DNA of 64,000 bases from Burkholderiales bacterium. Its GTDB lineage: Bacteria; Pseudomonadota; Gammaproteobacteria; Burkholderiales; SG8-41. The stretch is taken from positions 1-64,000 of the forward strand of contig DATAJS010000008.1 of NCBI GenBank assembly GCA_036262035.1, written 5' to 3'. Position numbers and translations under genes: made by a program. Numbering within the stretch: position 1 is the stretch's first letter; each line of letters opens with the position of its first letter. Shown here piece after piece: positions 44,937 to 53,831 of this stretch. The notes beneath the pieces were generated by a model. It searched no databases. It saw nothing but the letters and a program-made list of their open reading frames with translations, and was not told the DNA's origin.

Positions 44937-46142
44937 TCATCGTCCCACGGCGCCGTCCTGCACGTCGGCGGTCGCCCGCGAATCGCGCGCCGCCTGAACT
45001 TCGGCGTGAGTCGGCCGCTTGATCGCCGAAGAATCTCCCTTTCCAGCCCGGACCGGCGGTCGCGCGGGCGTCCGCGGGAGCGCACTGTGCTCCGCGTGCT
45101 CGAGCTCGGCGCGAACGCGCGGCAGCGCTTCGGGATGCTCGCGCTGCAGGAAATCGAGCATCGCCTCGCGCACGCGGCATCGCAGGTCCCACGCCCTGGA
45201 CGCATCCGCGGCGCTGACGAGCGCGCGCACCTGCACGGTCCGCTCGCTGGCGTCGGTCACCTGGATCATCGACACGCGCCCGTCCCATTCCGGCGAGCTC
45301 TTGCAGATGCGTTCCAGCTCCGCGCGCAGCGGCGCGAGAGGAACGCGGTAGTCGAGCCACAGAAAGACGGTGCCGAGCAGCTGTGAGCCGGTGCGCGTCC
45401 AGTTCTGGAACGGCTTCTGTATCACCCACTCCAGCGGCACGACCAGGCGCCGCTCGTCCCAGATTTTGACAACGATGTACGTCGCCGTGATCTCCTCGAT
45501 CCGACCCCATTCGTTCTCCATGATGACGACGTCGTCGAGCCGTATCGGCTGCGTCAGGGCGATCTGCAGCCCCGCGATCAGGTTTCCGAATACCGGGCGG
45601 GCCGCGATACCGGCCACCACACCGACCACACCGGCGGATGCGAGCAGGCTCGCGCCGATCTGCCGCATGCCCGGAAAGGTCATGAGCAAAGCGGCACCGC
45701 CGATGACGAGCACGAAGAACTTGACGGTGCGGACGAGCACGCGGGTCTGCGTCTGGATCCGTCGCGCGTGAATGTTGTCCGTCACGCTCGCCGGGTGCAG
45801 CTTGACGACGGCTTCCCCGACGGCGCCGATGACTCGCAGCGCGATCCAGGTGATCGCCGCGATGAGCAGCACCGCTACCGTGTGCACCGCGAACGCGCGC
45901 AGCAGGAGCTCCGGCGGCGCCGCGCCGAGCACGAGCTCGAGCGCCAGCAGCGGAGCCGCGAAGCGGATCGGCGTCGCCGTGAACTCCACGACGGTGCTCG
46001 CGATCGTGCTGGAACGCGAGATGCGCCTCAGCACCGCATACGCGACCTGGTGCGCGACGAGCGCCGCGATTACGCCCGCGCTGCCGAGGATGCCGGTCGT
46101 CAGCCACGGATATGAATAGTCGAACAGAGATGCAAAATCCAT
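44937..46142 (-). CDS. MscS-family mechanosensitive ion channel
   Basis: 401 residues. Several N-terminal hydrophobic helices precede the MscS pore and beta domain: GASLLASAGVVGVVAGIAARPVFGN (pore helix), LTQPIRLDDVVIMENEWGRIEEITATYIVVKIWDERRLVVPLEWV, then a soluble tail ending in a basic, disordered segment. It opens under membrane tension on osmotic downshock and releases solutes, a natural partner of the ectoine accumulation system nearby. Longer than E. coli MscS (286), similar to the YnaI/YbiO-like middle-size group. Confidence 0.92.
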   Translation of the reverse strand: MDFASLFDYSYPWLTTGILGSAGVIAALVAHQVAYAVLRRISRSSTIASTVVEFTATPIRFAAPLLALELVLGAAPPELLLRAFAVHTVAVLLIAAITWIALRVIGAVGEAVVKLHPASVTDNIHARRIQTQTRVLVRTVKFFVLVIGGAALLMTFPGMRQIGASLLASAGVVGVVAGIAARPVFGNLIAGLQIALTQPIRLDDVVIMENEWGRIEEITATYIVVKIWDERRLVVPLEWVIQKPFQNWTRTGSQLLGTVFLWLDYRVPLAPLRAELERICKSSPEWDGRVSMIQVTDASERTVQVRALVSAADASRAWDLRCRVREAMLDFLQREHPEALPRVRAELEHAEHSALPRTPARPPVRAGKGDSSAIKRPTHAEVQAARDSRATADVQDGAVGR

Positions 46143-49967: not shown

Positions 49968-50930
49968 TCAGTCGATCCGCGCGCCCGAAAGCTTCACGAC
50001 CTTCGCGTACTTGTCGTAGTCCGCCTGCAGGCGTTTGGCGAACGCCTCGGTCGTCATGGGCATGGGGTCGAGCGTGTGACCGACGAGCTTGGACGACACG
50101 CCGGGATCGGCCAAAGCCTTGCGGATCTCGCCGTTGAGCTTCTCCACGATGGCCTTCGGCGTCGCCGCGGGCGCGAAGCACGCCACCCACGCGGTGAACT
50201 CGTATCCCGGCACCGTCTCGGCGATAGCAGGGACGTCGGGGAACTGGCTCGTGCGCGTATCGGACGTGACGCCGAGCGGCCGGATGCGGCCCGCCTTGAC
50301 GTGACTCAGCACCGAGCCGATCGTCGCGATCATCGCCTGCGTCTCGCCGGCGACGAGCGCGGTGCCCGCGGGGCCGCCGCCTTTGTACGGCACGTGCACC
50401 ATCTTCACGCCCGCCATCGACGCGAGCAGCGCCATCGTCAGATGGACGAAGCTGCCGTTGCCGGCCGAGCCGTAGATGAGCTCGCCGGGCCGTTTTTTCG
50501 CCAGCGCGAGAAAGTCCTGCGTGGTTTTCGCCGGCAGCGAAGGGTGTACGACGAGCATCCCCACCTGACGCGCCATCGGCGAGATGCCGACGAAATCCTT
50601 CAGCGGGTCGTACGGCAGCTTCTTGTAGAGGTGCGCGTTGGCGACGTGCGTGGCCGACTGCACCATCAGGGTGTAGCCGTCGGCGGTGCTGTTCGCGACG
50701 ACTTCCGAGCCGATCGTGCCCGCGGCGCCGCCGCGGTTCTCGATCACGAACTGCTGGCCCATCTGCTCGCCCACCTTCTGGAACACGATGCGGCCGACGA
50801 TGTCGTTCGATCCGCCCGGCGGGAACACGATCACCACCCTCACCGGCTTGGTGGGATAGGTCTGGGCAAAGCTCGCGGCTGTCAGCAACAGCGCGCAACA
50901 CACGACGACTGCAACTCGAATCAGGATCAT
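49968..50930 (-). CDS. Bug-family periplasmic solute receptor
   Basis: 320 residues; ATG follows GAGGAGAGG, so the 50981 extension was dropped. Signal peptide MILIRVAVVVCCALLLTAAS ending near FAQ, then PVRVVIVFPPGGSNDIVGR, IENRGGAAGTIG and TADGYTLMVQSATHVANAH. It stands alone with its own strong terminator. By eye roughly 70 percent of residues match the receptor at 13504-14475 over the whole length. Confidence 0.95.
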   Translation of the reverse strand: MILIRVAVVVCCALLLTAASFAQTYPTKPVRVVIVFPPGGSNDIVGRIVFQKVGEQMGQQFVIENRGGAAGTIGSEVVANSTADGYTLMVQSATHVANAHLYKKLPYDPLKDFVGISPMARQVGMLVVHPSLPAKTTQDFLALAKKRPGELIYGSAGNGSFVHLTMALLASMAGVKMVHVPYKGGGPAGTALVAGETQAMIATIGSVLSHVKAGRIRPLGVTSDTRTSQFPDVPAIAETVPGYEFTAWVACFAPAATPKAIVEKLNGEIRKALADPGVSSKLVGHTLDPMPMTTEAFAKRLQADYDKYAKVVKLSGARID

Positions 50931-51039
50931 GTCCGCCTCTCCTCGGGGGCTGCCGAACGTGGGACCGGCGGCTGCGAGCAAACCTTACGCGCGGCGCGCT
51001 TCGCGTCAGAATCGGCGGCGTTCGCCGGTCTCTATCCGC

Positions 51040-51549
51040 ATGTCGAGAGCGGGCGGACATCGTCTATTCCAGGACCGGGTACGGCCGTGCGGGCCCACGG
51101 CCGCCCCGCGGTCCGCGAGACACGGCGCGCTCGCCCTGCTCGTATCGGCTCTGGTGTGCTCGTGCGCGACATCGCCGGCCGCGCATTCGGACCCTCTGCG
51201 CGGCCCGACCCCGGCTTTCAACGACGTCGCCGCTCCGGCGAGCGATTGCTGGGCACGGCTCTACGAGCACAGCGGCTTCGGCGGCCGCGCGCTCACGCTC
51301 GCCGGACCGACGCGGGTCGGCGGCCTCGCGCCGCACCCGGGTTTTCCGTGGGAACCGCGTTACGATAGCCTGGTCGTGGGGCCGGGCGCCGTGCTCGCGC
51401 TCTTCGCAGGCCCCGACTTCAAGGAGCGCGAAGCGACCTTCGAGGCCGGCGCGAAAGTCCGCGATCTCGACGACGAGATGAGCGTGTTCCGCCGGATCCG
51501 ATCGATGACGGTGACGTGCGCGGCCCCGAAAACGGCGGCGAAGCGCTAG
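51040..51549 (+). CDS. Beta/gamma-crystallin-like lipoprotein
   Basis: 169 residues. A hydrophobic segment LALLVSALVCSCATSPAA ends in a cysteine suited to lipid modification. The secreted part has CWARLYEHSGFGGRALTLAGP, matching the first Greek-key motif of beta/gamma-crystallins, and LALFAGPDFKEREATFEAG...RIRSMTV as a second, more divergent motif. The start is uncertain because an arginine-rich stretch lies between the ATG and the signal-like helix. It ends 30 bp before the trehalose synthase gene, so co-transcription is likely. Confidence 0.65.
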   Translation: MSRAGGHRLFQDRVRPCGPTAAPRSARHGALALLVSALVCSCATSPAAHSDPLRGPTPAFNDVAAPASDCWARLYEHSGFGGRALTLAGPTRVGGLAPHPGFPWEPRYDSLVVGPGAVLALFAGPDFKEREATFEAGAKVRDLDDEMSVFRRIRSMTVTCAAPKTAAKR

Positions 51550-51578: not shown

Positions 51579-53831
51579 ATGCGCCTTTCACTGCGTTTCA
51601 TCGTGCCGCTCGCGATCGCGCTCGGCATCATCGCCTACAACGTCGTGCCGCTCGTCGATCAGCTCACGCTGAAGTGGTTCGTGCGCGATCTGGACATCCG
51701 CAGCAAGCTCATCGCCTCCGCGGCGCAGGAACCGCTCGCCGAGCTGCTCACCGACGGTTCGCGCGACCGGGTGCGGCTGCAGCGCGTGCAGGCGTTCCTC
51801 AACCGCATGCTGCAGGACGAGCGTATCTTCGCGCTCGGGTTCTGCGACGCGTCGGGCGCGCTGGTGTCGCACACGCTCACCTATCCGCGCGAGCGCGGCT
51901 GCCGCGCGACCGGTCCCGTTCCGCCGGAGTTCGGGCAGAGCCCGGACACGCGCCGCCCGCTGTACGCCACGAGCAATTCGATCGACGTCGAAGGCCGGCA
52001 CCTCGGCGAGCTGGTCATCGTCCACGACATGAGCTTCATCGCGCTGCGCAGCGCCGACACCAAGCGCTACATCGTCTGGCTGTTCGCCGCGATCGGCGCG
52101 GTGATCGCCCTCATCACCGTGGTGATCGCCGAGCTCTCGTGGCGCGGATGGATGGCGGGCATCAAGGCGCTGATTCGCGGCCAGTCGCTGGCGCTGTCGC
52201 CCGAGCCGCGCTCGCCCGAGCTCAAGCCGATCGCGCGCGACCTCGAGGCGATGGTGCGCGATCTCGACAGCGAGCGGCGGGCGCGCGACGAGTCGCAGAT
52301 CGCGTGGAACCCCGATGCCTTGCGCAGGATCCTGCGCGAGGATCTCAAGGGCGACGAGATCCTGATCGTCTCCAACCGCGAGCCGTACATGCACGTGCGG
52401 CGCAACGACCGCACCGACGTGCTGCGTCCCGCGAGCGGCCTGGTCACGGCGCTCGAGCCGGTGATGCGCGCGTGCTCGGGAACGTGGATCGCCCACGGCT
52501 CGGGCAACGCCGACCGCGACAACGTCGACGCGCACGACCACGTGAGGGTGCCGCCCGACCGGCCCGCGTATCGCATACGCCGCATCTGGCTCTCGCGCGA
52601 GGAGGAAGTGGGCTACTACTTCGGCTTCTCGAACGAAGGCCTGTGGCCGCTCTGCCACTTCGCGCACACGCGGCCGATCTTTCGCGCGCCCGATTGGGCG
52701 CATTACTGCGCCGTCAACGCCCGCTTCGCCGACGCGATCAAGCAGGAGTCGCGCACCGAAGACCCGATCATCCTGGTGCAGGACTATCACTTCGCGCTGC
52801 TCCCCCGCATGATCCGCAAGCGCCTGCCGAACGCGACGATCATCACCTTCTGGCACATCCCGTGGCCGAACCCGGAAGCGTTCGGCATCTGTCCGTGGCG
52901 CGAGCAGATCCTCGACGGGCTGCTCGGCTCCTCCATCGTCGGATTCCATACGCAGTTCCACTGCAACAACTTCTTCGACACCGTCGACCGCTATCTCGAA
53001 GCCCGGGTGAGCCGCGAGACTTCGACCATCTCCTACGGCGGCGATCCGACCGAGGTGAGGCGCTACCCGATCTCCATCGAATGGCCGCCGGCCGCGCTCG
53101 CCGCGCAGCGCCCGGTCGCGGAGTGCCGCGAGCGGATACGGCGCGAGCACGGGCTTTCCGCGGACGTGCGCATCGGCATCGGGGTGGACCGCCTCGATTA
53201 CACCAAAGGGATTCTCGAGCGCTTCGCGGCCATCGAGCGCCTGCTCGAAATCGATCCGCGCTGGATCGGGCGCTTCGCGTTCATCCAGATCGCCGCGCCG
53301 TCGCGCTCGAGCATCGAGGAATACCAGGGGCTCGATGCGCGCGTACGCGCCGCCGCGCAGCGCGTGAACGACCGCTTCGGCACCGCGGAGTGCCGCCCCA
53401 TCGTCCTCAAGGTCGAGCATCACGACACCGAGGAGGTGTACGCGCACTTTCGCGCCGCCGACGTGTGTATCGTGTCGAGCCTGCACGACGGCATGAACCT
53501 CGTCGCCAAGGAGTACGTCGCGGCCCGCGAAGACGAGCGCGGTGCGCTCATCCTGTCGCAGTTCACCGGAGCGGCCGGCGAGCTGCCGGAGGCGCTGATC
53601 GTCAACCCCTACGACACCGAGCAATGCGCGACGGCGCTGCGTGTCGCGCTCGACATGCCGCCGGACGAGCAGCGCGCGCGCATGCGCAGCATGCGCGGCC
53701 TGGTGCAGGAGTTCAACGTCTACCGCTGGGCCGGAAGAATGCTGCTCGACGCCGCGCGCATGCGGCACCGCGGGCGCGTGGCGAGCGGCGCGCGCAGGCC
53801 GGGAAAGGTCGTCGACCTGCGGCGCGTCTGA
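51579..53831 (+). CDS. otsA: Membrane-anchored trehalose-6-phosphate synthase with N-terminal sensor-like domain
   Basis: 750 residues, about 280 more than ordinary OtsA. TM1 (about 6-24), a periplasmic region of about 135 residues, TM2 (164-186) and a HAMP-like linker (to about 240) precede a complete GT20 domain from about 259. Active-site motifs: [18 protein letters not shown] (Asp402), FWHIPWP (His426), [11 protein letters not shown] (Arg538, Lys543) and [11 protein letters not shown] (Glu645). It would make trehalose-6-phosphate from UDP-glucose and glucose-6-phosphate at the membrane, perhaps gated by the sensor part. No otsB phosphatase is present in the window. Such fusions occur in other proteobacterial genomes, I believe, but are little characterised. 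Confidence 0.93.

Follow-up and report, generated by a model that had tools for sequence, protein, structure and literature searches.

The gene at positions 51579-53831 (+) of the window, by which we mean the whole 64,000-nucleotide stretch of Burkholderiales contig DATAJS010000008.1 that was analyzed, raises the question of whether a trehalose-6-phosphate synthase (TPS) may be built as the output of a membrane receptor. The open reading frame runs from an ATG start to a TGA stop and encodes 750 amino acids, predicted to form a membrane-bound TPS with a PDC/Cache-TM-HAMP-like-GT20 architecture. A scan of GTDB contigs identified at least 80 loci that match essentially the whole protein with 56-83% identity, and the window protein and 80 listed relatives made up the 81-sequence family set used throughout. 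Because the identical, colinear architecture recurs over the whole length in at least 80 independent loci, a chance fusion or a frame artefact was ruled out.

Domain architecture of the membrane-bound TPS

All parts of the protein are encoded on the + strand. The first predicted transmembrane segment, TM1 (residues about 7-28, 51597..51662), is preceded by a conserved, positively charged MRLSLR, and the N-terminus is predicted to lie inside. The periplasmic domain follows (residues about 29-163, 51663..52067), then TM2 (residues about 164-187, 52068..52139), in which Y164, T180 and A184 are invariant, then a linker (residues about 188-240, 52140..52298) and the GT20 catalytic domain (residues 261-724, 52359..53750). 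Over the 81 sequences, mean pairwise identity was 0.69 in GT20, about 0.6 in the TMs (61% for TM1) and 0.44 in the periplasmic domain. The preliminary description had claimed this order of parts, had likened the N-terminal part to the input module of a chemoreceptor or histidine kinase, and had called the GT20 domain complete with its active-site motifs. The predicted structure and the Pfam match to GT20 bore out the order, the N-terminal part has a sensor-type PDC/Cache fold by predicted structure and PDB matches, and the catalytic domain spans nearly the full profile with every examined OtsA catalytic residue kept.

The periplasmic region is predicted to be a conserved PDC/Cache domain

The N-terminal 256 residues were folded with the 81-sequence alignment, giving a mean pLDDT of 84.5, with values mostly of 80-95 in the periplasmic domain. 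The model consists of a helix at residues 2-57 that includes TM1, a helix at 63-80, strands at 83-90, 95-98, 128-137 and 140-150, and a helix at 152-199 that includes TM2. The region is thus predicted to be TM1, a single PDC/Cache domain and TM2. The closest solved match found with Foldseek and VIA-align in the PDB was the extracellular domain of WalK, with Z 11.8 across 124 residues, followed by LuxQ (about Z 9.8), CitA (9.7), DcuS (9.6) and DctB (9.4); the LapD-like CdgS9 was also among the structural matches. Sequence profiles gave little: none of the Pfam Cache-clan profiles matched the window protein, CHASE4 matched weakly in 10 of the 81 family sequences (best 0.0016), Cache_WalK matched weakly (0.16) in one diverged relative, and a search of solved structures by sequence alone, with profiles of the PDC domain and of the linker, returned nothing useful.

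Seven periplasmic residues are invariant in the 81-sequence alignment: W33, D37, R82, C89, C108, D150 and R157. dN/dS in the domain was 0.02-0.21 in the close pairs for which it could be computed, pairs that contain the window protein being mostly saturated, and the domain is under purifying selection. The fold, the invariant residues, the two cysteines and the low dN/dS go beyond what a passive tether would need.

In 81 of 81 sequences among the matches listed, residues 29-163 contain two cysteines and no more, always in identical places: Cys89 (51843..51845, +), a probable disulfide partner, and Cys108 (51900..51902, +), the second of the pair. This constancy could be read to mean that the disulfide state of Cys89-Cys108, not a bound ligand, sets the activity of the enzyme, as a redox or envelope-stress switch. 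The pair is retained in the alphaproteobacterial copies and is absent jointly from the diverged L127-L129 branch. However, disulfides with a purely structural role often occur in periplasmic domains and would leave the same pattern, and the diverged branch retains the architecture without the cysteines. We regard a redox switch as improbable.

The linker may be a degenerate HAMP-like module

TM2 leads in the model into a helix, a 13-residue connector and a second helix at residues 213-238, which is the layout of a HAMP domain. No Pfam HAMP match was found in the window protein, HAMP was likewise absent from the best-matched families of the 81 sequences, and a HAMP search of the window's own genome found 37 HAMPs elsewhere and none at the TPS linker. 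When family residues 181-242 were compared profile to profile with the same-genome HAMPs by hhalign, they aligned in register, with RG201 at the HAMP Gly and E214 at the DE. The score was 17.1 with a probability of 7.6%; none of 200 column shuffles reached this score (maximum 15.3), and the reversed profile scored 8.1. dN/dS in the linker was 0.02-0.10 in the computable pairs. The description of the linker as HAMP-like therefore stands in part, as a weak, degenerate profile resemblance in the HAMP register, and finds no counterpart in a Pfam HAMP match. Taken together, the linker appears to resemble HAMP weakly, as a degenerate HAMP-like linker. An open frame of 2146 residues that strings together about eleven HAMP domains was noted separately (G000:C15:78948-81863).

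The catalytic domain belongs to a diverged GT20 subfamily

PF00982 (GT20) matched residues 261-724 with 402 bits (cut-off 32.5), covering profile positions 3-470 of 473. The full-length predicted model fits solved trehalose-6-phosphate synthases, best 5jio, with a TM-score of 0.91 on the target and 37% identity. We take the OtsA active site to comprise R9, G22, Y76, W85, D130, H154, R262, K267, R300, D361, N364, L365 and E369; aligned to E. coli OtsA of MG1655, all of these catalytic and ligand residues are conserved in 81 of 81 sequences among the matches listed. Two swaps at the edge of the active site run through the same 81 sequences among the matches listed: the GG loop is SG (G21 to S), and GW (G40-W41) is AH. 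The NCBIfam OtsA equivalog model TIGR02400 scored 414 bits and the glucosylglycerol-phosphate synthase model 294 bits, both below their cut-offs. Because its score lies far under the OtsA cut-off of 565, we place the family in a separate, diverged GT20 subfamily and not among OtsA equivalogs.

Genes of trehalose metabolism adjoin most relatives

An OtsB cluster neighbours the TPS in 65 of the 80 loci listed, usually directly downstream. By Pfam, the 86 downstream genes scanned included 54 trehalose-phosphatases and 20 GH15 proteins, and 18 of the 65 upstream genes scanned were GH15, these GH15/TREH_N proteins having a trehalase-like N-terminus. These operon partners support trehalose as the probable product. 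A different product, such as glucosylglycerol phosphate or another glucoside phosphate, or an inactive GT20 acting as a sensor or regulator, is suggested by the invariant SG and AH substitutions and by scores under both NCBIfam cut-offs. The examined catalytic residues are nevertheless all kept, the adjoining genes encode trehalose-phosphatase and trehalase-like GH15, and the OtsA model outscores that of glucosylglycerol-phosphate synthase; we judge a different or absent activity very improbable.

The window TPS has no adjoining OtsB, the genome's only OtsB being paired with a soluble OtsA (otsBA) on contig C5, so local coupling is weaker for this copy than in its relatives. Its upstream neighbour, which ends 29 bases before the TPS, is a small probable lipoprotein gene (50929..51549, +) whose product resembles beta/gamma-crystallins weakly (Crystall_3, 21.2 bits against a cut-off of 27.3). 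This crystallin-like gene was rejected as a conserved partner, having no match in any other locus examined and occurring in this genome only.

In L128 (309-1376, overlapping) and L129 (about 317-1345), the gene immediately upstream of the diverged PDC-type TPS encodes an MscS-type channel, an arrangement that points to osmotic physiology. MscS genes were also observed directly upstream of soluble otsA in genomes of the window's family (L011, L012, L016, L017, L018, L024 and L027), and the channels in the soluble otsA setting are 50-58% identical to the one beside the diverged membrane TPS. In G013 (L043), an MscS gene and a membrane TPS share one contig. The window itself holds a second, unrelated-looking MscS-family channel gene at 44940-46142 (-), about 5 kb upstream on the opposite strand.

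The architecture is widespread, and one branch has no periplasmic domain

The contig labels of the listed matches were Betaproteobacteria, Nitrospira, Geobacter, other Desulfuromonadia, Smithella/Syntrophia, Bdellovibrionota, Gemmatimonadota and Acidobacteria; individual labels may be wrong, since some contigs are short and come from metagenome bins. The search of 60 near relatives found the full architecture intact in a single frame in six other genomes and broken across two frames in G029. The split membrane TPS of that genome (L010 and L023; G029:C189:5333-7523) breaks near residue 435, either by sequencing error or as a pseudogene. In the class-wide sample, the N-terminal profile matched 9 of 274 genomes. 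This distribution is much wider than that of an isolated, odd fusion.

Two other explanations of this distribution were considered and rejected. In the 274-genome sample, the N-terminal module was not found on other outputs such as kinases or cyclases; every match examined, all but one weak second match (G272:C12), was a TPS. A mobile or viral gene was also set aside: no relative was found in viral contigs, and plasmid matches reached no more than about 71% coverage of the query, those examined being without the periplasmic domain.

In the tree, the membrane TPS family forms a separate, well-supported clade from soluble OtsA. The taxonomic order of the window also contains a soluble GT20 from this 'WIAHGSG' subfamily (L144, G609:C1:331287-332681), whose long branch makes its placement uncertain. 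Ten alphaproteobacterial copies (rhizobial, including Aminobacter: L132, L134, L135, L137, L138, L140-L143 and L030) have a single TM anchor and the linker, the periplasmic domain being gone, and they form one nested branch (support 99/98). Because the 2TM-PDC form is found on both sides of the tree, loss of the sensor in rhizobia is the simplest reading. Since this branch keeps the enzyme, members of the family can do without the sensor. In Bradyrhizobium diazoefficiens, the general stress response controls trehalose synthesis (PMC8092242); if its otsA is of the one-TM type, the case would suggest that the sensor can go where expression is controlled otherwise.

The rhizobial copies bear most directly on the chief rival to the receptor-enzyme model, in which the N-terminal part serves simply to locate trehalose production to the inner membrane and to aid oligomerization, with no signal transduced. 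The enzyme would then sit beside a channel, a transporter or the membrane being protected. Retention of just the TM anchor and linker, as one nested change, fits such an anchor or scaffold, as do the MscS genes that adjoin some copies. Against this stand a folded PDC domain with invariant residues, a cysteine pair and dN/dS well below 1, kept in many phyla, and the recurrence of the 2TM-PDC form on both sides of the tree, which makes the rhizobial loss read as the exception. We consider a pure anchor rather unlikely.

A proposed receptor-enzyme

We propose that the protein is a membrane receptor-enzyme, with PDC/Cache input, HAMP-like coupling and a GT20 output gated by a periplasmic signal, and we give this model about an even chance of being correct. 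The cytoplasmic GT20 domain, tethered to the inner membrane, would serve the periplasmic domain as its output and form trehalose-6-phosphate from NDP-glucose and glucose-6-phosphate. A condition of the periplasm or membrane, be it osmotic state, desiccation, redox state or the presence of a small ligand, would shift the pose of the PDC dimer. The helices of TM2 and of the HAMP-like linker would relay this change to the GT20 assembly, whose activity would be set with no kinase or response regulator involved. What we infer here is membrane insertion, dimerization, gating and which signal is read; gating of trehalose synthesis by the N-terminal domain, which the preliminary description had likewise put forward as direct control by an extracytoplasmic signal with no phosphorelay, is plausible from the sequence evidence, and osmotic or desiccation stress is the favoured signal by pathway logic. 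As the design is kept across many bacterial phyla, cells may tune trehalose output by outside conditions. Our broader proposal is more tentative, at somewhat below an even chance: that these proteins form a widespread class of receptors, each a single chain, whose periplasmic PDC/Cache domain acts directly as the gate on making a compatible solute. Adjustment to osmotic or desiccation stress could then proceed without passing through kinases, transcription or second messengers.

If gating holds, a transmembrane Cache receptor would act directly through a metabolic enzyme, the known range of sensor outputs would grow, and the cell could obtain a stress protectant quickly and with no need for transcription. 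The plain 'OtsA' annotation of genomes hides a receptor-like protein. Because the family occurs in many phyla, probably including the genetically tractable Geobacter, the question is directly testable.

Comparison with known systems

A search of the open literature, with subscription papers mostly outside its coverage, found no paper on a membrane or HAMP/Cache trehalose-6-phosphate synthase. Each part is known in kind; the combination, a Cache receptor with a compatible-solute enzyme as output, did not turn up in that search. A survey of Cache domains reported known signal-transduction domains as outputs, SMP_2 being the exception, and selected proteins that hold such domains (PMC4822843); this selection of recognized outputs may explain why the architecture was passed over.

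In Geobacter sulfurreducens, GSU2337 has been annotated as a TPS 'containing a domain' with 37% identity to its mycobacterial counterpart, with the adjoining GSU2336 a trehalose-6-phosphatase (PMC2700814, the G. metallireducens genome paper). No sensor region is named in PMC2700814, whereas the Geobacter contigs in the present scan carry the full architecture, and GSU2337 probably belongs to the membrane TPS family.

In Thermoproteus tenax, the msc-gt-tpsp operon joins a mechanosensitive channel to trehalose synthesis (PMC3634074). The genetic link between trehalose and MscS is shared with L128 and L129, and in T. tenax the activity of the synthase is controlled by a protein partner. That partner is a separate glycosyltransferase, and TPSP is reported without such a sensor (PMC3634074); here, in contrast, the putative control lies in the same chain.

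Soluble OtsA of E. coli and M. thermoresistibile has the catalytic fold and catalytic residues in common with the window family, and an OtsB operon partner is common to OtsA-type systems and most of the membrane TPS relatives. OtsA has no membrane or periplasmic part, whereas the window family carries the SG and AH substitutions and forms its own clade. With single-domain PDC/Cache receptors that contain HAMP, such as WalK/YycG, CitA and DcuS, the family shares the TM-PDC-TM layout, the predicted fold and a linker in the HAMP register. The output sets them apart: Cache receptors end in a histidine kinase, a chemoreceptor or a cyclic-nucleotide enzyme, and the window TPS ends in an enzyme of sugar metabolism.
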